Virus record (IMG/VR): IMGVR_UViG_3300040810_000567
Location: 1 to 22,034 of that record
DNA from: a virus
Strand: one strand, 5' to 3'
Length of the DNA: 22,034 nucleotides
A model generated the notes under the pieces. It was given only the letters and a program-made list of their open reading frames with translations. It was not told where the DNA came from and searched no databases. Position numbers and translations under genes: made by a program. Positions 1,814 through 14,016 of this stretch are shown one piece after another (position 1 is the stretch's first letter; the number at the start of each line of letters is the position of its first letter).

Positions 1814-3186
1814 AAAAAGTATTAATAGCAATACCAACAAACAAGTATATAGAACCAGAAACATACAAAGCGATATATGATCTTACAATACCAGAAGGAT
1901 ACAAAGTTGAATTTCAATTCTTTTTTGGTTATCAAGTAGATCAAATTAGAAATCTAATTGCTAAATGGGGAGAACATTATGATTATTTGTTTTCAGTAGA
2001 TAGTGATATATCTTTTGATAAAGATACACTAGTTAAAATGTTAGCACATGATGTAGATATTGTATCAGGTCTTTATATTCAAAGAATACCAGGAACACAC
2101 TCATTAGAAATTTATGAAGCTTCTAATAACGGTGGTTCTAGACGTATTCCTTGGGTAAAAGTTAAAGATACTCCGTTTTTAGAAATAGTTGGTTGTGGTA
2201 TGGGTTGTGCCCTTATTAAAGGAAAAGTATTTAGAGAAGTTGGTTATCCTCAATACACATATCATTCAGCACTTGATCATAATAATACATTATCTGAAGA
2301 TGTTGACTTTTGTAGAAAAGCAAGAGCAAAAGGTTTTAAAATATGGGCAGATACTACAATACGTTGTAGACACACAGGTAACAGTACATTTGAAGTAGGA
2401 CAAATTATGGATAATCGTAATATGTTTGAAGAAAAACCACCTATTGAAAAAACTTATGTTCAAGAAGTTGAAGGCAAAGGTGAAAAAGATACTAGATTTA
2501 TTGATAAGACTGCAAAAGATGTTAGTAGAGTTTATCCAGGTATTGATCCTAAAACTGGAAAATATTCACTAGAAGTAAATGAAGGAGAAAAATTTACTGG
2601 TGATAGTGTAGAATATACTTCATTAGCAGAAGCAGTACAAAGATTAAAAAATCCTATTGGTCAAAGTATGGAGATTGGTGTTAGATTAGGTCTAGGAAGT
2701 AAAACTATTATAGACGCATACAGACATTATCATCCTAATACTAGTCTTGTTCATTTAGGTGTTGATCCATATGGTAATATTGACTATGCAGCTTCTGATA
2801 GTGTATTAGCCAGAAAATTTAACTATGATAATTTAATGAGAAAAACTACGCTAATAAATTTTGCTGAAGATTATCCAGAGTTTCATCTTGTAAATCTAGA
2901 AGATTCAGAATTTATGAATAGTTTTGCTAATGGTTATCCTGTCTATGATGAATATAAAAGAATGATAGACAAATATGAAATGATACACTTTGACGGTCCA
3001 CATGATACAAAAAGTGTTTTAAAAGAAGCAGTATTCTTTAATCAAAGAAAAGCAGATCAAACTGTATGGGTTTTTGACGATATAAGTGGTTTAAATTGGG
3101 CTACTCTAGAAAGCTTTATGACTAAAGCACAGTTTAAACTTGTTAACAAAGGTATGAACAAAGCAGTATTTGAATATCTTGCTTAA
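1810..3186 (+). CDS. GT2-like glycosyltransferase fused to a class I methyltransferase-like domain
   Basis: 458 residues. Residues 1-195 form a GT-A fold: AIPTNKYI at the N-terminus, a DSD metal site at D64-D66 and a late acidic motif SEDVDFC (about 162-168), as in GT2 enzymes. After a linker, residues 285-458 resemble class I SAM-dependent methyltransferases of the Methyltransf_24 type: motif I-like EIGVRLGLGSK (288-298), then IHFDGPHD and WVFDDISG, which match the acidic metal-site segments of that group. One protein may therefore both transfer and O-methylate a sugar. An AGGA about 10 bases upstream could serve as ribosome binding site, and the ATGA overlap couples it to the preceding glycosyltransferase. 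The 3' end overlaps the convergent small gene by 4 bases. The methyltransferase half is less certain than the GT half. Confidence 0.8.
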   Translation: MKKVLIAIPTNKYIEPETYKAIYDLTIPEGYKVEFQFFFGYQVDQIRNLIAKWGEHYDYLFSVDSDISFDKDTLVKMLAHDVDIVSGLYIQRIPGTHSLEIYEASNNGGSRRIPWVKVKDTPFLEIVGCGMGCALIKGKVFREVGYPQYTYHSALDHNNTLSEDVDFCRKARAKGFKIWADTTIRCRHTGNSTFEVGQIMDNRNMFEEKPPIEKTYVQEVEGKGEKDTRFIDKTAKDVSRVYPGIDPKTGKYSLEVNEGEKFTGDSVEYTSLAEAVQRLKNPIGQSMEIGVRLGLGSKTIIDAYRHYHPNTSLVHLGVDPYGNIDYAASDSVLARKFNYDNLMRKTTLINFAEDYPEFHLVNLEDSEFMNSFANGYPVYDEYKRMIDKYEMIHFDGPHDTKSVLKEAVFFNQRKADQTVWVFDDISGLNWATLESFMTKAQFKLVNKGMNKAVFEYLA

Positions 3187-3524
3187 AAAGATTTGACTAC
3201 AGATGGAGTTACGATAACAATACCCTCTAATAAACGAGTAACAGTACTATCAGCGTGAGTAGCTACAACATCAAATACGTGACGACCTGCCTTTAAAGCT
3301 TTTGTTTGATCGGCAGTTAAACTTATAGTTACCACACCCTCTGTAGGATTTGTTACTGTACAAGTAAATGATGTTCTAGGATATGTAGAGGAATAACCTT
3401 TAGACATTTTAGCAACCATCGTAAATCCAGTAAGATCAAAATCTGTACCATCGGTATTAGTGACTTCTAAATCGTATGTAAAATTGGACCCTTGGTCTAT
3501 CGTTAAGTTTGCTATTCCAGCCAT
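3183..3524 (-). CDS. Small Ig-like virion-type protein (BppU-N-like)
   Basis: 113 residues, all beta-strand in character: ITIDQGSNF-like start, DGTDFDLTGFTMVAKM in the middle, then GVVTISLTADQTKALKAGRHVFDV and a closing GIVIVTP. This pattern (ligand-binding-like beta sandwich with 'DLTG' and 'LTA..T..L..G.y.fDV') is common in small structural or baseplate-associated proteins of tailed phages, including marine T4-like ones. It has no signal peptide or membrane segment. No Shine-Dalgarno sequence precedes the ATG; instead an exact late-promoter octamer ends five bases upstream. It is probably a late structural or decoration protein. The exact virion location cannot be told. Confidence 0.72.
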   Translation of the reverse strand: MAGIANLTIDQGSNFTYDLEVTNTDGTDFDLTGFTMVAKMSKGYSSTYPRTSFTCTVTNPTEGVVTISLTADQTKALKAGRHVFDVVATHADSTVTRLLEGIVIVTPSVVKSF

Positions 3525-3537: not shown

Positions 3538-3546
3538 TTCGGAAAG

Positions 3547-3575
3547 TTGCCATTTTAGATAAAATATTATATACT
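3547..3575 (+). promoter_or_regulatory. sigma70-type promoter for the riboswitch-receptor unit
   Basis: A -35 element TTGCCA (3547-3552) is followed after 17 bases by a -10 element TATACT (3570-3575). Each matches the sigma70 consensus at five of six positions with ideal spacing. Predicted initiation near 3582 places the transcript start about ten bases before the riboswitch. This would make the receptor gene readable by unmodified host RNA polymerase, unlike neighbours preceded by late octamers. Confidence 0.62.
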
Positions 3576-3588
3576 ATATAGTATATAA
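3567..3588 (+). repeat. 22-bp perfect palindrome overlapping the promoter -10
   Basis: Eleven consecutive complementary pairs surround the centre between 3577 and 3578; the core is ACTATATAGT. It covers the -10 element and predicted transcription start, where a dimeric repressor could bind. It could also be an AT-rich cruciform or simply a low-complexity coincidence. No poly-T tract follows it, so it does not look like an intrinsic terminator. Confidence 0.6.
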
Positions 3589-3591
3589 CAA

Positions 3592-3694
3592 TGGCCTAAA
3601 AGTGTAGTGGGAAAGTGACGTGAAATTCGTCCAGATTACTTGATACGGTTATACTCCGAATGCCACCTAGGCCATACAACGAGCAAGGAAACTC
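3592..3694 (+). promoter_or_regulatory. Cobalamin riboswitch, env8 hydroxocobalamin (Cbl-II) class
   Basis: The leader carries the cobalamin-riboswitch core. The closing helix is TGGCCTA (3592-3598) with TAGGCCA (3668-3674). The inner helix is GTGG (3607-3610) with CCAC (3663-3666), followed by the conserved GGGAAAG stretch. GACG (3617-3620) pairs with CGTC (3628-3631) around the TGAAATT loop, and CCGAATGCCACC closes the core. A short 3' hairpin, GAG (3681-3683) with CTC (3692-3694), presents loop CAAGGAAA. That loop contains the Shine-Dalgarno AAGGA (3685-3689) of the receptor gene at 3698, and its CAAG is complementary to CTTG (3639-3642) in the L5 region: the kissing loop by which env8-type switches hide the ribosome site when B12 is bound. 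From memory it differs at only a few positions from the marine metagenome env8 RNA. It is expected to switch translation off at high B12. Confidence 0.93.
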
Positions 3695-3697
3695 AAC

Positions 3698-5305
3698 ATG
3701 ATAAGATTAATTCTTATATTAATCTTGGTATGGGCTAATGTTGCCTATTCCAAGGAAGATGATTGTAAATGGGATGACGATATTCCTTGTCTTACAATAT
3801 ATCCAAACATAAACAACTCAAACGCATTAGGTGATAAGATAACACCTACACTTACAATTAAAAAATCTGAAATTCAAAAGTATAATCTAATTGATTTACC
3901 TAAAGTATTAAACTATGTTCAAGGTTTAGACATAACTCAATCAGGTCCTACAGGTCAACAATCATCGGTGTTTTTAAGAGGCACTAATTCTAATCATACA
4001 TTAGTATTATTAAATGGAATATCAATCAATGATTACTCTACACCTACAGGCGCCCACGATGTTGGTCAAGACTTTATGTTTAATGTTGTACAAATAGATG
4101 TATACAAAGGGTCACAAGGTGCTCATTGGGGAGCAGACGCTGTTGGTGGTGCAATTAATTTTAGAACAACTGTAGATTATGATAAAAAATTAAGTATTGG
4201 TGGTAATGGTAATGATAAAACTATTAGTGGTAATTACTATACTAAATTAAATGACTTTGATATATCTTTTTCAGCTGGCGAACATAAGTCGCAAAACGTT
4301 TCTGTTTTATCAGGAGCTGACGAAAAAGATGGAACAAATAATAAAACAATAGGTGTTAACGTAAGTAAATGGTATGATCAAATACATTGGCGAACATCTT
4401 GGTTTGCAAGAAACACTTTCTCTGATATAGATGGTCATAGTGTTTCCATACAAGACGGTAAATGGGCAGATAATACTTTCTTTGCCTTACAAACAGGTGT
4501 TGATTATTTAAATAATAGTTTAACTTTTCATACACATGAATATGATAGAGACTATGACGACTCTCATTATGAAAGTGAAAACTATACAATAAGAGGAACA
4601 CATCAAAAAGAAAAATATGGTTTTGGCTTTGATTATAAACATAATGAATCTTTAGCAAGTCAACATCATAATCTAGGATACTTCTTTAATTTTTCACACA
4701 ATATATTTTCATATCATCATAGGTTTGATGAAGAACACGAAACATATAAATTAGGTTTCTTTAAAGAGGTAGAAGATGGTTTAAGTATAAGTGGTAGTAC
4801 ATCAACAAGTTATAAAGATAAGACAACATGGACTGCTATTGAATATGGAGAATCACAAGAGTTAACATTAACTAAAAATAATTTTGCAACAACTATATTT
4901 AAAAATGATATTGGTGATTTAAATACTGACGGTATAGAGTTTAGTTATAATCAAGAAAATTCTAAATTTTTTATTAGTCATTTAAATAGTAAAAAGATTG
5001 ATGTAGTACAATTAAGAAGACCTAATTGGTCTGTTGGATTTATGAATACAAAAGATTTAAAAAATAACTTTTCTATAACTACTAATTACAAATATAAAGG
5101 CAGACATTTAGATGTGCATAATTCTAATTGGTCAACTATAACAATGCCTGAAACACATTTGTTAGATTTAAATCTTGGATATAATTATTATGGTATAGAC
5201 TTTGGTGTTAGTTTGTTAAATCTATTTGATGAAAATTATGAATCACCTCATGGGTTTAGTCAAGAAGGAAGAAAATTTACTTTAGGTTTTAATAAATCTT
5301 TTTAA
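3698..5305 (+). CDS. BtuB-like TonB-dependent outer-membrane receptor (putative cobalamin transporter)
   Basis: 535 residues. Residues 1-18 look like a signal peptide (hydrophobic LILILILVWANVAYS). A plug domain follows at about 45-157, with the family signatures DLPKVLNYVQGLDI, FLRGTNSNHTLVLLNG and VYKGSQGAHWGADAVGGAINF, closest in pattern to BtuB. The rest is alternating beta-barrel sequence ending in Phe, as barrel proteins do for BAM insertion. The barrel is shorter than that of E. coli BtuB (about 594 mature residues). A TonB box is not obvious; CLTIYP (31-36) is a candidate, and C23 and C31 could pair. The B12 riboswitch in the leader supports cobalamin as substrate and also fixes the start. 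It would work with host TonB-ExbBD and host BtuFCD; none of these is in the window. Confidence 0.9.
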   Translation: MIRLILILILVWANVAYSKEDDCKWDDDIPCLTIYPNINNSNALGDKITPTLTIKKSEIQKYNLIDLPKVLNYVQGLDITQSGPTGQQSSVFLRGTNSNHTLVLLNGISINDYSTPTGAHDVGQDFMFNVVQIDVYKGSQGAHWGADAVGGAINFRTTVDYDKKLSIGGNGNDKTISGNYYTKLNDFDISFSAGEHKSQNVSVLSGADEKDGTNNKTIGVNVSKWYDQIHWRTSWFARNTFSDIDGHSVSIQDGKWADNTFFALQTGVDYLNNSLTFHTHEYDRDYDDSHYESENYTIRGTHQKEKYGFGFDYKHNESLASQHHNLGYFFNFSHNIFSYHHRFDEEHETYKLGFFKEVEDGLSISGSTSTSYKDKTTWTAIEYGESQELTLTKNNFATTIFKNDIGDLNTDGIEFSYNQENSKFFISHLNSKKIDVVQLRRPNWSVGFMNTKDLKNNFSITTNYKYKGRHLDVHNSNWSTITMPETHLLDLNLGYNYYGIDFGVSLLNLFDENYESPHGFSQEGRKFTLGFNKSF

Positions 5306-6603
5306 GATTGTACATGTAAAGAATTAACTTTTTTCTTTCTAGGGTGATCAATTCCTATAGACTTTCTATTTTCATTAAGTTTATCAGATTTGTATCTTTC
5401 TATTTTGTCAATACAATGTTGTTGAAACTGATAACCTAATTGGTTTCCTAATTCATAAAGTTTTATAAATCTTTGAAATCTTATATCAAAATCGGAGTTT
5501 TGATTTTTCCATTTGAAGCCAAATTCTCCACCAAACAATTCTCTATGTTCAAAATCTAAAGGTGTATTTTCAAAAGTCATCATAACGTGGTGAGATACAC
5601 TGATTAAATGTGAATACTTTGCATAGTCTCTTAATAGTTGCATAGTATCTTCAAACATTTCTTCCGTTTCCGTAGGATATCCTACAATCAGTAAGAACTT
5701 CATTTTAATTTTTCTTTCTCCTAAATTGGTAACAAAGTATTTTATATCATCATTAGTAAACTTTTTTTTCATATGATTTCTAACACTTTCATTACCTGAT
5801 TCTATACCCATTTCCAAACCATTACAACCAGAGTTTGCCAAATTATCAAAATCTTCTTGCGAAAAAGTCTTTTCAGCTCTGACAATAAACTGTCCTTCCC
5901 ATTTTACCTTTTTCTTTTTTATAGATAATTCGTAAACCATATCTCTAAAATGTTTCATTGAACCATTAACCAATGAATCGGAAAATGCTATCTTTTCAGA
6001 TTTAGTATGTTCAGCAACACTATGTATTTCGTCAGCAATTTTTTTACCTGATTTCCATCTAAATTTTGGCCAGATACTTGCAACATCACAGAAAGTACAA
6101 TTTCTAACACAACCTCTAGAACCAGATATTATAAATCTGCCATATTTGTGTTCTTTTATTACGTCTGAATAATCTGGTGGTGGCAAATCTTCTATGTTTT
6201 CTATCTGTTTTGGTAGTCTTCCGTTAATACCAGGATAATCAAAATTTCCTTTTAAAAATTCTTGTACAGCATATTCTCCTTCTCCTACTATAAAATTTTT
6301 AGAAGGCCATTTTATATCAACACCTGATCCTCCGTAAAAAGCATTATCATATTTTTCTCCTAATTTTAAACCATCTTCTTTTTGCATAAAAGAAAATACA
6401 GATATACCTAACCATCTAAATTTATATTTTGCAATTTCTTTGTGTATATTTTCTAAAGTATCTAATTGATTACCATCTATAACTTTAATTTTAAATCCTA
6501 ATGGTTCTAAATATCCTTTTAAAAAAGAAGGACCAGGTGCAGGTTTACCCTTATCCATTCCTGGCAGTGATGTAATAACGGCGTCATATAATGTATTATC
6601 CAT
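5302..6603 (-). CDS. B12-binding-domain radical SAM enzyme
   Basis: 433 residues from the ATG at 6603, which overlaps the upstream stop as TAATG and lies downstream of a GGAGG (about 12 bases). A TTG-started extension to 6651 has no support. Residues 5-120 match the Rossmann-like cobalamin-binding domain of class B radical SAM proteins: PAPGPSFLKGYLEPLGF, VIDGN, WLGISVFS and the closing IVGEGEYAVQEFL. The DxHxxG histidine is absent, as in many members. The radical SAM cluster motif is C165-x3-C169-x2-C172 (GCVRNCTFCD), with a later MGIESGNESVRNHM segment typical of the SAM-binding barrel. Such enzymes methylate or rearrange unactivated carbons; the substrate is unknown. It is last in a minus-strand operon and ends 4 bases inside the convergent B12 receptor gene. 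Confidence 0.87.
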   Translation of the reverse strand: MDNTLYDAVITSLPGMDKGKPAPGPSFLKGYLEPLGFKIKVIDGNQLDTLENIHKEIAKYKFRWLGISVFSFMQKEDGLKLGEKYDNAFYGGSGVDIKWPSKNFIVGEGEYAVQEFLKGNFDYPGINGRLPKQIENIEDLPPPDYSDVIKEHKYGRFIISGSRGCVRNCTFCDVASIWPKFRWKSGKKIADEIHSVAEHTKSEKIAFSDSLVNGSMKHFRDMVYELSIKKKKVKWEGQFIVRAEKTFSQEDFDNLANSGCNGLEMGIESGNESVRNHMKKKFTNDDIKYFVTNLGERKIKMKFLLIVGYPTETEEMFEDTMQLLRDYAKYSHLISVSHHVMMTFENTPLDFEHRELFGGEFGFKWKNQNSDFDIRFQRFIKLYELGNQLGYQFQQHCIDKIERYKSDKLNENRKSIGIDHPRKKKVNSLHVQS

Positions 6604-7058
6604 TAATAAGGTAGTCCTCCAACAATATGAGTACGATCTTCTTTTGAACAATTTAGTGCTGTATGTTTTTTTCTAGTGTCTATTACATACGCCTCTCCTG
6701 TGGCTGGTATGTGTATTCTATCATTATCTAGTAATAAGAAACAGTGTTCATTTGTTACTATTGGTATATGTAATCTTTGTGTCAAGTCATTATGCCAAAG
6801 ATAACATGCTTTAGGTTTCATTCTCATCAATCTTGTTCTAGTAAGTTTGTGTTCTTCCATTATACTATTAATATAAGGTATATCAAATAAAGGAACAGTA
6901 TATGTGTGTTCTACTTTATCTACGTCATAACCTTTACCAGCTCCTTCTTCAGGATCCATGTCTTTAGAATAACCTTGTAGATATAATTGTTTATTATAAT
7001 CTGGTAAAGTTTCTAACTCTTTTTTAATCTTTTCTAAATCGTACTGGTAAGTCTTCAT
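6603..7058 (-). CDS. Asp/Asn beta-hydroxylase-like 2OG-Fe(II) oxygenase
   Basis: 151 residues. The C-terminal half carries the jelly-roll metal and cosubstrate residues of the aspartyl/asparaginyl hydroxylase family: YLWHNDLTQRLHIPI with H89 and D91, a second iron ligand H132 in RKKHTALN, and R142 in DRTHIVGG for 2-oxoglutarate. GEAYVIDT before H132 matches the family's 'GE.w.fd' strand. The protein is short, little more than the catalytic core, as is common for phage oxygenases. It could hydroxylate a protein or small metabolite; the target is unknown. The start overlaps the upstream small gene (ATGA) and its stop overlaps the radical SAM start (TAATG), so the three are a translationally coupled operon. 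Confidence 0.82.
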   Translation of the reverse strand: MKTYQYDLEKIKKELETLPDYNKQLYLQGYSKDMDPEEGAGKGYDVDKVEHTYTVPLFDIPYINSIMEEHKLTRTRLMRMKPKACYLWHNDLTQRLHIPIVTNEHCFLLLDNDRIHIPATGEAYVIDTRKKHTALNCSKEDRTHIVGGLPY

Positions 7059-7310: not shown

Positions 7311-8177
7311 ATGACTAGATTAAACGTAATAGTGACTTCTAAACCAGGCGATGGTTTAATGCATTATAGTTTTGAACAAGTACAATATCTAAACGATTTA
7401 GGTATTAATGCAAAACTTATAATCATACCTCACTACAGATTTACCAAAGAAACTTATATAGAGGCCTTAACAGAAAAGTATATACATATGAAAAATGTAT
7501 ATTTTGATTATGAAGAAGCTGATGTAAATTTAATTATGGGTAGAAGTATGTTAACTTTGGCATATAAAAGTATTAGAGACTATGATAAAGATACACAATT
7601 GACTTTACGTTTGTTATTTAAGAAACCTCTTATATCAGTATATTCAGAAAACCACCCTAAAGAATATCCTTTAGCACTAGAATTTTTTAAACCAGAAAAA
7701 GTAATTGACTTATGCGATCACGAGGTATATGTTAATGGTATAGGTAGACAATTTGAAAAGATTATTAATTACAGTGTATATAAACCTATAGTTAAAGACG
7801 TTAAGTTTAAGTATCTATTTTTAGGTACAAACGAAAGTTATTATACTGAACTAAAAAAACATATTCACAAATACCAAAATCATGGTATCTTGGCATACAA
7901 AGATAAGTACATAGACCATAATTTAAATCATGTATTTGTACCTGTAAAAAATTTATTAGGTATGTTTGACACTTACGTTTATACTAAACACACATTTGAT
8001 CCGGCACCAAGATTAATGCAGGAGTGTCGTTTTTTTGGAATGAATTTTATATATGCAAGAGATAAAAATATTAAAGACGCAGGACCTGTTTATTATAAAA
8101 GGCCAGCAAACTGTTTAACGGACCCGATAAATAAAAGTAATATAAATACACTTATAGAAGCTATAAATCAATTATAA
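7311..8177 (+). CDS. Putative GT-B-like glycosyltransferase
   Basis: 288 residues. The start MTRLNVIVTSKPGDGLMHYSF resembles GT-B glycosyltransferases (beta strand, then a Gly-rich loop). The C-terminal part has KYLFLGTN, a YVYTKHTFDPAPRLMQECRFFG stretch resembling the donor-binding 'PR...E....G' region of GT-B enzymes, then a cysteine near the end. No strict EX7E motif is visible, so the family assignment is tentative. It is first in the plus-strand island, downstream of a late octamer, and its stop overlaps the next start (TAATG). It probably adds a sugar to the island's unknown acceptor. Confidence 0.6.
   Translation: MTRLNVIVTSKPGDGLMHYSFEQVQYLNDLGINAKLIIIPHYRFTKETYIEALTEKYIHMKNVYFDYEEADVNLIMGRSMLTLAYKSIRDYDKDTQLTLRLLFKKPLISVYSENHPKEYPLALEFFKPEKVIDLCDHEVYVNGIGRQFEKIINYSVYKPIVKDVKFKYLFLGTNESYYTELKKHIHKYQNHGILAYKDKYIDHNLNHVFVPVKNLLGMFDTYVYTKHTFDPAPRLMQECRFFGMNFIYARDKNIKDAGPVYYKRPANCLTDPINKSNINTLIEAINQL
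8141..8148 (+). promoter_or_regulatory. Possible internal late promoter octamer
   Basis: Exact TATAAATA in the last codons of the preceding gene, 28 bases before the radical SAM start at 8177. The spacing would suit a promoter with a leader of about 23 bases. Because it is inside coding AT-rich sequence, chance is a fair alternative. Confidence 0.4.
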
Positions 8178-8869
8178 TGTCATATTTTAAAAAAAGATTA
8201 CACGCACTGAATTTGGATTTATCTCATAGATGTCCTTTAGAATGTCCTAATTGTCAAAGACAAACGGCCTTTACAAATAAAGGCTTAATACCACATGGGC
8301 GTGATCTAACATTGCATGAAATAGATATGATAACAGATCATTTTAAATCAGTTGGCTTTTGTGGACAATTATCGGATCCTGTACATCACCCTAGATTTAA
8401 TGAAATACTAGAACTATTTAATAAAAAAAATATTGGAGCTACAGTTCACAGCGCAGCCACGGCTAAACCTATATCATGGTTTATTAAATCATTTAAAGCA
8501 AATCCAAATGCAAGGTGGGTATTTGCCTGTGACGGCTTACCGAAAGATAGTCATAAGTATAGAAAAAATCAAGACGGAGAAAAGATGTTTGAGATAATGA
8601 AAATAGCAAAACAACATTTAAATACCACACCACAATGGCAATACATAATATTTAATTACAATGAAAATAATATAGAAGAAGCCAAAAAAATGGCTTCGGA
8701 CAACGGACTTGAATTTATATTGGTTCAATCTTCTAGATGGAGGGATGATAATGGTAAACCAGATCCTTTAAGACCAACAGGTTCTTCCGGAATTAAAACA
8801 CTATTAACAAAACAAACTGAAAAAGATAAAGATGGAAATTACAAATGGCAAAACAAAGAATTAAATTAA
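8177..8869 (+). CDS. Radical SAM domain protein, N-terminal half of a split rSAM system
   Basis: 230 residues with the [4Fe-4S] motif C19-x3-C23-x2-C26 (CPLECPNC) near the N-terminus. It then has GFCGQLSDP and CDGLPKDSHKYR, almost the same as in the single-ORF protein at 19842 (FCGTFSDP, GLPKDSHKYR), so the two are paralogs. It ends in TAA just where the paralog continues into a cysteine-rich C-terminal region. That region is present here in another frame (8845-9264), overlapping by 25 bases. Inserting one base near 8866-8868 would join KELN to LSPLCLPD and restore one reading frame. It may work as a complex with the next product, be a recent frameshift, or reflect a sequence error. Substrate unknown. 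Confidence 0.82.
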   Translation: MSYFKKRLHALNLDLSHRCPLECPNCQRQTAFTNKGLIPHGRDLTLHEIDMITDHFKSVGFCGQLSDPVHHPRFNEILELFNKKNIGATVHSAATAKPISWFIKSFKANPNARWVFACDGLPKDSHKYRKNQDGEKMFEIMKIAKQHLNTTPQWQYIIFNYNENNIEEAKKMASDNGLEFILVQSSRWRDDNGKPDPLRPTGSSGIKTLLTKQTEKDKDGNYKWQNKELN

Positions 8870-8918
8870 GTCCTCTCTGTTTACCGGATAAAGATAGACA
8901 AGGAAATTACGAATGGCA
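8825..8918 (+). repeat. Imperfect direct repeat flanking the split-gene junction
   Basis: 8825-8850 (GATAAAGAT then GGAAATTACAAATGGCA) recurs at 8887-8918 with six extra bases after GATAAAGA(T) and one change. Both encode D-K-D-x-G-N-Y-(K/E)-W type peptides in the two different frames used by the flanking ORFs. The second ORF's ATG lies inside the first copy. This suggests a local duplication close to the break. Confidence 0.55.
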
Positions 8919-9264
8919 TGGTAGAAAACATGTTATGCCTATGGCAGTTAATAATAGAGGTTATTTATTACCATGTTGTTGGTGTGACGAAAAAAATATA
9001 ATAAATTCAAAAGAATTTAAACCTTTGTATGATGTAAGTAAACTTGAAGACTATAATAGTATAAATGAAATACTTGAAACAAAAGAATGGGTTGAGTTTG
9101 AAAATGATTTAATTAATGCTAGAGATATAGGAGATGAAGACAGTTTAAAAAAAGTACAATCAGTTTGTATACATCACTGTAAAGTAAGAGAAAAAGAAGA
9201 TAAAATAAAAATAGAAACTCACTTTTCAGCTGAAGGTAAAAAAGTAGTAGAGGAAATAAAATAA
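8845..9264 (+). CDS. SPASM-like C-terminal cysteine-cluster half of a split radical SAM enzyme
   Basis: 139 residues with no radical SAM motif of its own. It carries cysteines arranged as in the C-terminal auxiliary Fe-S region of the paralog at 19842: C12 (SPLCLP; paralog PKCL), LLPCCWC (C44, C45, C47; paralog LPCCW) and a terminal pair C108 and C112. GYLLPCCW after NNRG is typical of SPASM/twitch-type domains. The ATG at 8845 is inside the end of the upstream gene; only a weak GGA lies about eight bases before it, so coupled reinitiation is more likely than independent translation. Its stop overlaps the aminotransferase start (TAATG). Confidence 0.72.
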   Translation: MAKQRIKLSPLCLPDKDRQGNYEWHGRKHVMPMAVNNRGYLLPCCWCDEKNIINSKEFKPLYDVSKLEDYNSINEILETKEWVEFENDLINARDIGDEDSLKKVQSVCIHHCKVREKEDKIKIETHFSAEGKKVVEEIK

Positions 9265-12178: not shown

Positions 12179-13014
12179 AATTTGATCTAGAATACGCACA
12201 AAAAAATTATTTAGCGATAGATTTCTTTTTATCTATGTCTTGTAATAAAGATTGTCATTATTGTACAAGTTATACTCTAGAAATGAGAAACTTGACAGTA
12301 GATTTAGATTTTTTAAGATCAACCTTAGAAGCGTTAAAAGAATATAAAGTTAGAATATGTTTACTTGGTGGTGAACCAGGTTTAATTAAAAACCTTCGTG
12401 AAGTAATTGCAATGGTAAAAGAATATCCTAATTTTATTCCTCAAGTTTTATCTAATTCTTTTATAAGAAAAAGATATCCTGAAATATTAGAAGATCCTGA
12501 AATATTATACGTAGAACACTTAACACTGGATTTTTATCCAGATAAAATAAAAAAATTAGGTAACTACGATTATCTAGCACCTAATGATATGAATAATTAT
12601 AATGTAGTACTTAAAACGCCTAATTACTTTAAGTATATAGCTAACTATCCAGAATTTAAAAAACAATTAGAACATAAAAATACTATGTTCAAAGCATTTA
12701 ACGGTAGAACACCATCTAAAGGTGATGTAGAAGAAGTACACACACAGGCGGCTGAAATAGATCGTAAAATGTGTGCTGCTTTTCCTATGGTACCTGTTAT
12801 AGATTTTGAAAAAAAACATATAGTACACTGTAGTAAAAAATTTGCAAATAACACCGAATTGTCTAGGTCTTTTCCTATGACTAAAGAAAACATTGATAAG
12901 ATGATGAACTTCCAGTTATTCAAATATGAGAAGTATTGTGTAACATGTAAAGAATATGTACAACCGAAAGGACATTTTCCTATTGAAAAGTATAGTAATA
13001 TATTAAAATTATGA
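12175..13014 (+). CDS. Radical SAM enzyme with C-terminal cysteine cluster
   Basis: 279 residues. The radical SAM motif is C23-x3-C27-x2-C30 (CNKDCHYC), followed by LLGGEPGL (63-70), the SAM-amine-binding GGE motif in its most classical form in this window. The C-terminal part has C-rich positions IVHCSKK and CVTCKEYV that could hold an auxiliary cluster. Unlike the systems at 8177 and 13011 the two parts are in one frame. It has ATGA overlaps at both ends with its neighbours, so it is in the same coupled series. Substrate unknown; peptide or sugar-nucleotide chemistry are both possible. Confidence 0.87.
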   Translation: MKFDLEYAQKNYLAIDFFLSMSCNKDCHYCTSYTLEMRNLTVDLDFLRSTLEALKEYKVRICLLGGEPGLIKNLREVIAMVKEYPNFIPQVLSNSFIRKRYPEILEDPEILYVEHLTLDFYPDKIKKLGNYDYLAPNDMNNYNVVLKTPNYFKYIANYPEFKKQLEHKNTMFKAFNGRTPSKGDVEEVHTQAAEIDRKMCAAFPMVPVIDFEKKHIVHCSKKFANNTELSRSFPMTKENIDKMMNFQLFKYEKYCVTCKEYVQPKGHFPIEKYSNILKL

Positions 13015-13709
13015 TGAAAACGGTTGATATTTCTGTTACTAATCTTTGTAACATTAAATGCCCACAATGTAGAAGAACTGATCCTAACGGATTAAAAACT
13101 CACGAATTACTTCCTCTAGATACTTGGTCATTAGAACAGTTTCAAACTGCTTTTCCAATAAATGATTTAGATGACATGGAAGAATATAGTTTTTGTGGTT
13201 TATGGGGAGATCCTTTGATGGCCAAAGATATAAAAAAGATTATATATTACATAATAGACAATTCAATAAAATCTAAAGTAACCATAACAACAAATGGTAG
13301 TATTAGGTCAGAAAAGTTTTATGAAGAAATAGGTAATTATTGTGATAAAAGATTAGCAATCGTTTTTGATATAGATGGTATTAATGAAGAAATGCACACC
13401 AAATATAGACGTGGTGCTTCATTAAAAAAATCTTTAAATAATATGTATGCTTTGTCAAAAACAAAAGCAATACCGTTATCTCAAACAATTATATTTAAAC
13501 ATAACCAGGATTATAAAAAAGATATATTAGATTTAGCAAAGAAATGGGGATCACATAACCATGAATTTTGTTTATCAGATAGATTTGATGGTAAATCAAA
13601 ATGGCATTTTGTCAATGAAAAAGGAGAAGATGAATATTTAGAAGCTGCTACGGATACAACAGTACAGATAGCAGTAGACAAATATCCAAAAAATAAAGAA
13701 AATGGCTAA
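13011..13709 (+). CDS. Radical SAM domain protein, N-terminal half of a second split rSAM system
   Basis: 232 residues with C13-x3-C17-x2-C20 (CNIKCPQC), FCGLWGDPLM in place of the GGE motif, TITTNGS and FDIDGINEEMHTKYRRG, all at positions matching the radical SAM barrel of the paralogs at 8177 and 19842. It stops immediately before a separate ORF with the auxiliary-type cysteines. The frame relation to that ORF (+1) differs from that of the first split pair (-1), so the two breaks arose independently. Two ATGs in tandem at the start are both usable. The substrate is unknown. Confidence 0.83.
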   Translation: MMKTVDISVTNLCNIKCPQCRRTDPNGLKTHELLPLDTWSLEQFQTAFPINDLDDMEEYSFCGLWGDPLMAKDIKKIIYYIIDNSIKSKVTITTNGSIRSEKFYEEIGNYCDKRLAIVFDIDGINEEMHTKYRRGASLKKSLNNMYALSKTKAIPLSQTIIFKHNQDYKKDILDLAKKWGSHNHEFCLSDRFDGKSKWHFVNEKGEDEYLEAATDTTVQIAVDKYPKNKENG

Positions 13710-14016
13710 AAGTATTATTTGTAAATGGAAAGAAAGTAGTAGGTGTTTAATACAGCCTGACGGACAAGTGTTTCAATGTTGTTTTTTAAAATTACATTTT
13801 ATAGATTATGAAAACAAAAAAGAAACTGATGGTAGATCACATCCTATTATAAAAGACTATCTATCTAAAAAAGAAGAATATAACATAAAAAATGACTCTT
13901 TAAAAAATATACTAAATAAAGAGTGGTTTAAAAAAACTTTACCAAATAGTTTGATTGATTATGATAAGGCACCTAAACCTTGTAAAAGAGTTTGTACAAT
14001 AGAAAGTAAAAAATAA
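13702..14016 (+). CDS. SPASM-like cysteine-cluster half of the second split radical SAM enzyme
   Basis: 104 residues. Cysteines C7 and C15, then VFQCCF (C26, C27) after QPDGQ, and a terminal C94-x3-C98 reproduce the arrangement of SPASM/twitch-type auxiliary domains. PDGQVFQCC corresponds to NNKGKILPCC in the single-ORF paralog at 19842. The ATG overlaps the last codons of the upstream gene by eight bases and has no clear Shine-Dalgarno, so it depends on reinitiation or on an undetected frameshift. The junction lies in a run of A residues (GAAAATGG), a place where one-base slippage or an indel is easy. Confidence 0.7.
   Translation: MAKSIICKWKESSRCLIQPDGQVFQCCFLKLHFIDYENKKETDGRSHPIIKDYLSKKEEYNIKNDSLKNILNKEWFKKTLPNSLIDYDKAPKPCKRVCTIESKK

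Follow-up and report, generated by a model that had tools for sequence, protein, structure and literature searches.

An env8-type cobalamin riboswitch precedes a btuB-like gene in the genome of a probable T4-like marine phage

The DNA analysed here, called the window throughout, is the 22,034-nt IMG/VR virus record IMGVR_UViG_3300040810_000567. The locus of interest lies between two minus-strand genes and contains the following features:

3183..3524, minus strand: L-shaped tail fibre assembly-type protein (phrog_1084, 1.1e-26; phrog_3304, 3.6e-19)
3547..3575, plus strand: likely sigma-70 promoter, TTGCCA-17-TATACT (10/12 consensus matches)
3593..3673, plus strand: cobalamin aptamer, env8 type, RF01689 AdoCbl-II (cmscan 75.2 bits, cut-off 36.5, E 2.1e-17)
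3681..3694, plus strand: P13 expression-platform hairpin GAG-CAAGGAAA-CUC, loop CAAG complementary to aptamer L5 CUUG
3685..3690, plus strand: Shine-Dalgarno AAGGAA in the P13 loop, 7 nt upstream of the ATG at 3698
3698..5305, plus strand: BtuB-like TonB-dependent receptor, 535 aa (Pfam Plug 1.1e-17)
5302..6606, minus strand: radical SAM protein (PF04055 1.2e-19; core CxxxCxxC, CVRNCTFC)

The original prediction placed a cobalamin riboswitch at 3592-3694, and an Rfam covariance search confirmed both the identification and, to within one base, the limits. RF01689 aligns over its whole model (positions 1-81 of 81) and is the sole family above its gathering score in the window. By comparison, the classical cobalamin riboswitch, RF00174, has 189 model positions. 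In an alignment of 11 phage leaders, 10 of them distinct, standard pairs fill 92.8% of the paired cells. Covariation is confined to P1, in which three pairs have changed on both sides and the covariation score was attained in none of 500 shuffles; as the leaders are almost invariant outside P1, they are hardly informative on the remaining helices, and two of the 28 pairs (14-75 and 24-40) are formed by none of them. Folded by minimum energy, the single strand did not recover the aptamer and did no better than shuffles (z -0.31), a result that is not decisive because the aptamer is pseudoknotted. A blastn search of phage and plasmid collections with the leader gave no match.

With position 1 set at 3593, the window matches all seven env8 residues that we could compare by published residue number rather than by the 4FRN letters: A9, G12, U13 and U69, named in the accessible text of one paper (PMC12138973), and the pocket residues G19, A20 and A68, named in that of another (PMC11838749). 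Near-identity to env8 had been proposed for this RNA; these residues support it as far as they go. Among 55 SAR11 rows, G19 is found in 55, U13 in 51, A9 in 41, U69 in 9, G12 in 8 and A68 in 3, and it is A68, U69 and G12 that separate the window from most SAR11 switches. The window appears to differ from the env8 RNA at two positions, 11 and 98, at both of which L006 and L020 (C11, G98) appear to agree with env8. The env8 hydroxocobalamin riboswitch (PDB 4FRG, 4FRN) and the window RNA share their numbering, the placement of the RBS in the P13 loop and the L5-L13 kissing arrangement. In the portions available of the papers on it, env8 is presented as a standard structure for kissing-loop B12 switching and as a translational repressor, in which ligand-promoted L5-L13 docking hides the RBS in the P13 loop (PMC10907184). 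The same partial sources describe position 68 as recognising the axial ligand (PMC11838749) and env8 as the parent of an RNA imaging tag (PMC12138973). By analogy, the window RNA would bind its ligand and act as a translational OFF switch, with selectivity presumably for hydroxocobalamin. The text accessible to us gives that RNA no origin more specific than environmental or metagenomic; the window RNA has a phage genome and a target gene. A text search of the literature with the window letters found no paper.

A 3' hairpin presenting the Shine-Dalgarno in a loop complementary to L5 had also been anticipated, and it lies at 3681-3694, with CUUG.CAAG complementarity by sequence between aptamer positions 47-50 (3639-3642) and the P13 loop. 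The accompanying remark that GGAG has weakened to GGAA in this loop is correct: GGAA occurs in 3 of 23 env8-type rows (the window, L002 and L028) and GGAG in the remaining 20. In L135 the P13 stem is kept through a change of the outer pair from G-C to A-U. The kissing loop covaries among leader types (CUUG.CAAG, CCUG.CAGG and CCAGG.CCUGG), and a leader's own pairing averages 5.09 pairs, compared with a shuffled mean of 4.72 and a top value of 4.94 among 200 shuffles. Upstream, the promoter boxes of the window are kept in L018 and L019, both of which are without a riboswitch. Promoter-like sequences arise readily by chance in DNA of this kind (14 sites in the region, against 13.6 expected from shuffles); what is argued from promoters, also for the switchless loci below, rests on conservation and not on the scan. 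Three loci (L012, L013 and L014) carry about 60 extra bases between promoter and aptamer, including the inverted repeat AGTCTACAC ... GTGTAGACT.

E. coli btuB encodes the B12 outer-membrane receptor and is controlled by a B12 leader RNA. The closest solved relatives of the window receptor are E. coli-type BtuB chains (E 3.3e-23), and its relationship to E. coli BtuB is distant. Because its TIGR01779 score (95.3 bits) falls under the equivalog cut-off (599.7), we call it BtuB-like rather than a BtuB equivalog. Its predicted structure is poor (pLDDT 37) and was left unused.

Tail to tail with btuB, and overlapping it by 4 nt, is the radical SAM gene. No PF02310 B12-binding domain was matched in its product at E 0.01. 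Its NCBIfam matches include many B12-binding radical SAM families, all far under their cut-offs, and in a Foldseek search its model (pLDDT 78.8) was closest to MgmA (E 9e-17), then OxsB and TsrM, with AprD4 and MiaB not far behind at 1e-12. As PF02310 is absent by sequence, we call this protein putatively B12-type, by fold only. The neighbourhood recurs: 34 of 40 testable contigs have a B12-type radical SAM gene no more than 5 kb from btuB. These forty are the members of a list of 59 btuB contigs (L033 and L043 stand outside it) with at least 1.5 kb on either side, and for a second radical SAM profile, only matches below E 1e-20 entered the count. The other six (L016, L021, L025, L113, L114 and L130) have no such gene within 5 kb. 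When ten of these radical SAM proteins were scanned for PF02310, five scored above the cut-off, four below it and one not at all; those directly beside btuB in G060, G062 and G026 fall below it, and of the five above, that of L155 lies within 5 kb of btuB. We also considered a class II ribonucleotide reductase as a phage B12 user and found no support for it, the two large subunits scanned (G060 and G062) matching NrdA-type families. Elsewhere in the window, two pairs of overlapping ORFs (8177-8869 with 8845-9264, and 13011-13709 with 13702-14016) divide a radical SAM core from a Cys-rich part, and a similar split recurs in L073; such pairs could be split enzymes or cases of frameshifting.

The analysis directly establishes the sequence of the RNA and its conserved P1, its phage setting, its association with btuB, its recurrence and its independent exchange. 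Homology and neighbourhood suggest that the receptor transports B12 and that the radical SAM enzymes beside btuB use it. We consider it very likely that an env8-type (Cbl-II) riboswitch in the 5' leader of this phage btuB-like gene translationally represses phage B12 import. When B12 in the host is low, the Shine-Dalgarno in the P13 loop would be open to ribosomes, and the receptor produced would bring B12 across the outer membrane, probably to serve B12-type radical SAM enzymes that the phage encodes close by. Abundant cobalamin would bind the aptamer and L5 would kiss L13, hiding the Shine-Dalgarno and stopping translation.

The destination of the imported B12 is the part of this reading with the strongest competitor, in which uptake supports general host metabolism and the radical SAM genes are merely common in the region. 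Five radical SAM genes lie in the window; judged by matches, B12-type architecture is confined to the btuB neighbour. SAR11 is described as the most abundant surface marine bacterioplankton in the accessible text of PMC10504331, and in SAR11 genomes the switch also accompanies PF02310 proteins. We scored 397 SAR11-family genomes, drawn from a larger group, with stricter filters, and found RF01689 in 61. PF02310 occurs in 54 of these 61 and in 48 of the 336 others, counts that are not corrected for kinship, and in at least 28 of the 61, a lower bound rather than a rate, a PF02310 protein lies within 5.5 kb of the riboswitch. Against host metabolism as the destination, the classic host B12 sink was not found: MetH-type PF02607 is above its cut-off in none of the 397 genomes, with one weak match below, and we dropped MetH as the host B12 user. 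Nor do pelagimyophage isolates appear among the INPHARED matches to either gene, which comprise eight records for the radical SAM gene (tblastn) and five for btuB, the Salmonella and Acinetobacter ones among the latter covering 19-21% of the query; since neither search found such an isolate, the two genes are absent together from the pelagimyophage isolates of that collection. On balance, we think that support of general host metabolism is unlikely, while granting it an appreciable chance. Across the SAR11-family set, 102 genomes match PF02310, 61 match RF01689 and none matches PF02607 above the cut-off; radical SAM enzymes may be what these cells need B12 for.

The arrangement seen in the window is widespread among viral contigs. 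We found the env8-type leader in 29 viral contigs besides the window, RF01689 scored above its cut-off in 28 of the 31 viral records behind the first loci, and a btuB-like gene lies downstream of every env8-type leader whose downstream gene was examined. Two large contigs have the env8-type leader: G060 (172 kb), whose DNA polymerase is nearest to those of phages of alphaproteobacteria with ~480 kb genomes (49%, Phosso), and G062 (115 kb), with baseplate-connector, ligase and RNR genes. G020 and G026 (60 kb each) instead carry a SAR11-type RF01689 leader before a btuB that is 83-85% identical to that of the window. Because the terminase of G022, a contig related to the window, has no match in G060, G062, G020, G026, G034 or G024, the virus status of these six rests on IMG/VR and PHROG matches.

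RF01689 is absent from 30 phage-btuB contigs (3 of 31 records in one set and 27 of 31 in another), and we conclude that control by RF01689 is dispensable. The remaining four records of the second set comprise two with RF01689 and two motif false positives. RF00174 does not take its place, being found in none of 35 records that include all thirty. L132 and L134 matched the motif and not the model, and were dropped as riboswitch loci. At 16 of the 30 switchless loci, only 5-10 nt separate the end of the best promoter-like -10 box from the ATG, a Shine-Dalgarno is not seen, and the mRNAs are probably leaderless. The promoter stretch is identical in L098, which has the switch, and L101, which does not; it is followed directly by the ATG in L101, and in L098 the switch intervenes.

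Comparison of genes and leaders indicates that the two have separate histories. The window and L021 have BtuBs that are 85% identical and aptamers that are 54% identical, while the window and L135 have BtuBs at 31.5% and aptamers at 87.7%; for ten SAR11 pairs with BtuBs 35-40% identical, the aptamers average 74% (maximum 83%). Given this discordance, we conclude that leaders move between btuB genes independently of the gene. In the main group the signal peptide MIRLILxLILVWANxAYSK goes with the env8 leader. L133 has a similar one and L135 a different one, so the moving piece need not contain the signal peptide.

A second phage group links the same aptamer family to a different gene order. RF01689 is present in 13 of 13 viral loci (L258-L272 except L260 and L267) at 81.7-93 bits, for example at L264:181-2699, L270:1241-3771 and L265:1891-4403, on contigs of up to 242,646 b. 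These leaders have the SAR11-type platform. The next gene encodes a DUF6580-like membrane protein in 11 of the 13 loci (in L266 only its start), the other two ending too soon, and three proteins that were scanned match PF20221 at E 5.5e-40 to 1.1e-46. A TonB receptor follows in the six loci whose gene order we mapped, and DUF6580 may accordingly be a component of an inner-membrane cobalamin transporter. From these RF01689-DUF6580-TonB loci we conclude that more than one phage lineage has uptake genes coupled to B12 switches.

These patterns bear on the idea that the receptor has nothing to do with B12 nutrition and that a newly supplied TonB receptor alters adsorption or superinfection, with the riboswitch a passenger on a host gene. 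TonB receptors can be phage receptors, and the paper on pelagiphage Skadi, in the part of it accessible to us, takes a phage-encoded TonB receptor as pointing to adsorption; the thirty contigs without RF01689 fit this idea as well. A passenger, however, would not be expected from a switch that is exchanged independently of its gene and stays intact across phages, and neither the B12-type radical SAM genes adjoining btuB nor the second group, where RF01689 precedes a membrane protein as well as a receptor, favors adsorption. We therefore regard it as improbable, and retain regulated B12 import as our reading.

We turned to cellular genomes for relatives of the switch. Scanning 84,980 species genomes for the riboswitch motif gave 23 matches, eight of them in uncultured Pelagibacteraceae, and no env8-type leader among the 23; the motif fixes position 31 of the aptamer as A, so that env8-type variants of the L012 and L017 kind would escape it. 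All eight Pelagibacteraceae matches have a TonB receptor downstream, six resembling phage BtuB (38-40%, best segment) and two weakly so (22%). A BtuB profile search of species-genome contigs found nothing, although the motif scan did find these SAR11 relatives. The env8-type leader was not seen in the 397 SAR11-family genomes either. Our env8-type model, R1, matches 31 of them at no more than 60.7 bits, compared with 111.7-132.3 bits for the phage rows, a gap that arises partly by construction because those rows built R1.

SAR11 (Pelagibacteraceae) btuB-type riboswitches thus resemble that of the window in placing RF01689 upstream of TonB receptor genes, but they differ from the env8-type phage switches in platform and at position 68. 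Independently of R1, the env8 P13 motif occurs in none of 58 SAR11 loci, which include repeats of some genomes, and a long platform core is recognised in 52 of them. All 11 env8-type phage leaders have A at position 68, where 52 of 55 SAR11 leaders have G. The aptamers of four env8-type phages and 14 SAR11 loci are 62.7% identical on average and 70.4% at most. In a phylogenetic tree, phage BtuB without L135 is sister to SAR11 type-A BtuB with moderate support (90/92 and 90/95), and L135 falls outside both groups on a long branch. Besides the phage-like type, a second, distant TonB receptor family (L166, L173, L223, L240 and others) stands behind SAR11 RF01689 leaders. Reading the long SAR11 platform by eye (L193-L226, and phage L021 and L027), we noticed a possible helix of CCGCTGTT with AGCAGTGG, the 3' arm of which has an alternative partner in the area around the RBS in several leaders (GTGGC with GCCAC). 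The long platform may therefore switch in another way than env8, perhaps by strand exchange.

The window itself in all likelihood comes from an uncultivated T4-like pelagimyophage, an assignment that forms part of our joint best explanation. Another virus record, G001, is collinear with it at 99.99-100% identity across all 22,034 bases and has baseplate wedge genes, and the stretch around 3540-5305 is unbroken in further contigs. The sole structural match in the window is the tail fibre assembly gene, the divergent neighbor of the riboswitch, and the T4-like hallmarks sit on G001 and on related contigs: G022 and G027 have terminase, sheath, neck and head-closure genes, and G019 has a baseplate wedge gene. 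The G022 terminase (TerL) is nearest to that of Pelagibacter phage Mosig (79%), followed by Melnitz (66%) and HTVC008M (62%). Mosig is also the nearest isolate for the tail fibre gene (49.6%); it has this same gene and, in the 18 kb inspected, no annotated btuB. RF01689 and btuB are also cellular, and SAR11 has both, yet the notion that bacterial DNA or a chimeric assembly near 3540-5305 put them beside phage genes can be dismissed on the collinear and continuous contigs, the T4-like genes and the lack of an env8-type leader in the cellular sets searched.

These results also divide the proposal that this riboswitch class circulates in, or came from, marine phages. Circulation of the env8 type among them is borne out by its additional viral contigs; an origin of the class in phages is not, as the wider RF01689 family is found in SAR11-family cells. 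As far as we have searched, the env8 type with its short P13 platform looks virus-specific. We tentatively suggest, while holding it somewhat less probable than its negation, that the env8 type was made by viruses. A SAR11-like aptamer would have been taken up, its platform cut down to a kissing hairpin and position 68 changed from G to A, perhaps to suit another cobalamin form. The leader, partly with signal-peptide sequence, would then have passed among phage lineages and among btuB genes that are only distantly related, in alternation with alleles that have no leader and no regulation, so as to supply phage B12-dependent radical SAM enzymes.

The glutamine riboswitch of Melnitz and Mosig offers a parallel, being likewise a riboswitch in marine T4-like phages of a streamlined host, but it belongs to another ligand class and has another target, the tmRNA region (PMC9004378). 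As far as its accessible text goes, the paper regards phage riboswitches as rare, cites an example for psbA of cyanophages, and mentions cobalamin once, for a host riboswitch upstream of btuB (PMC9004378). Among the literature matches listed, and in the portions of them available, we found no phage cobalamin riboswitch. The kind of RNA is known; within the reach of our searches, its residence in phages, the gene that it targets, its exchange and the tie to B12-type enzymes are unreported.

With its phage setting, the env8 type gains phage btuB as its natural target, and a need of viruses for B12 is indicated. The setting also provides natural alleles of one gene that have an env8-type switch, a SAR11-type switch or, apparently, no leader. 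That phages take in a vitamin under feedback control during infection of SAR11-like bacteria is an idea that can be put to the test.
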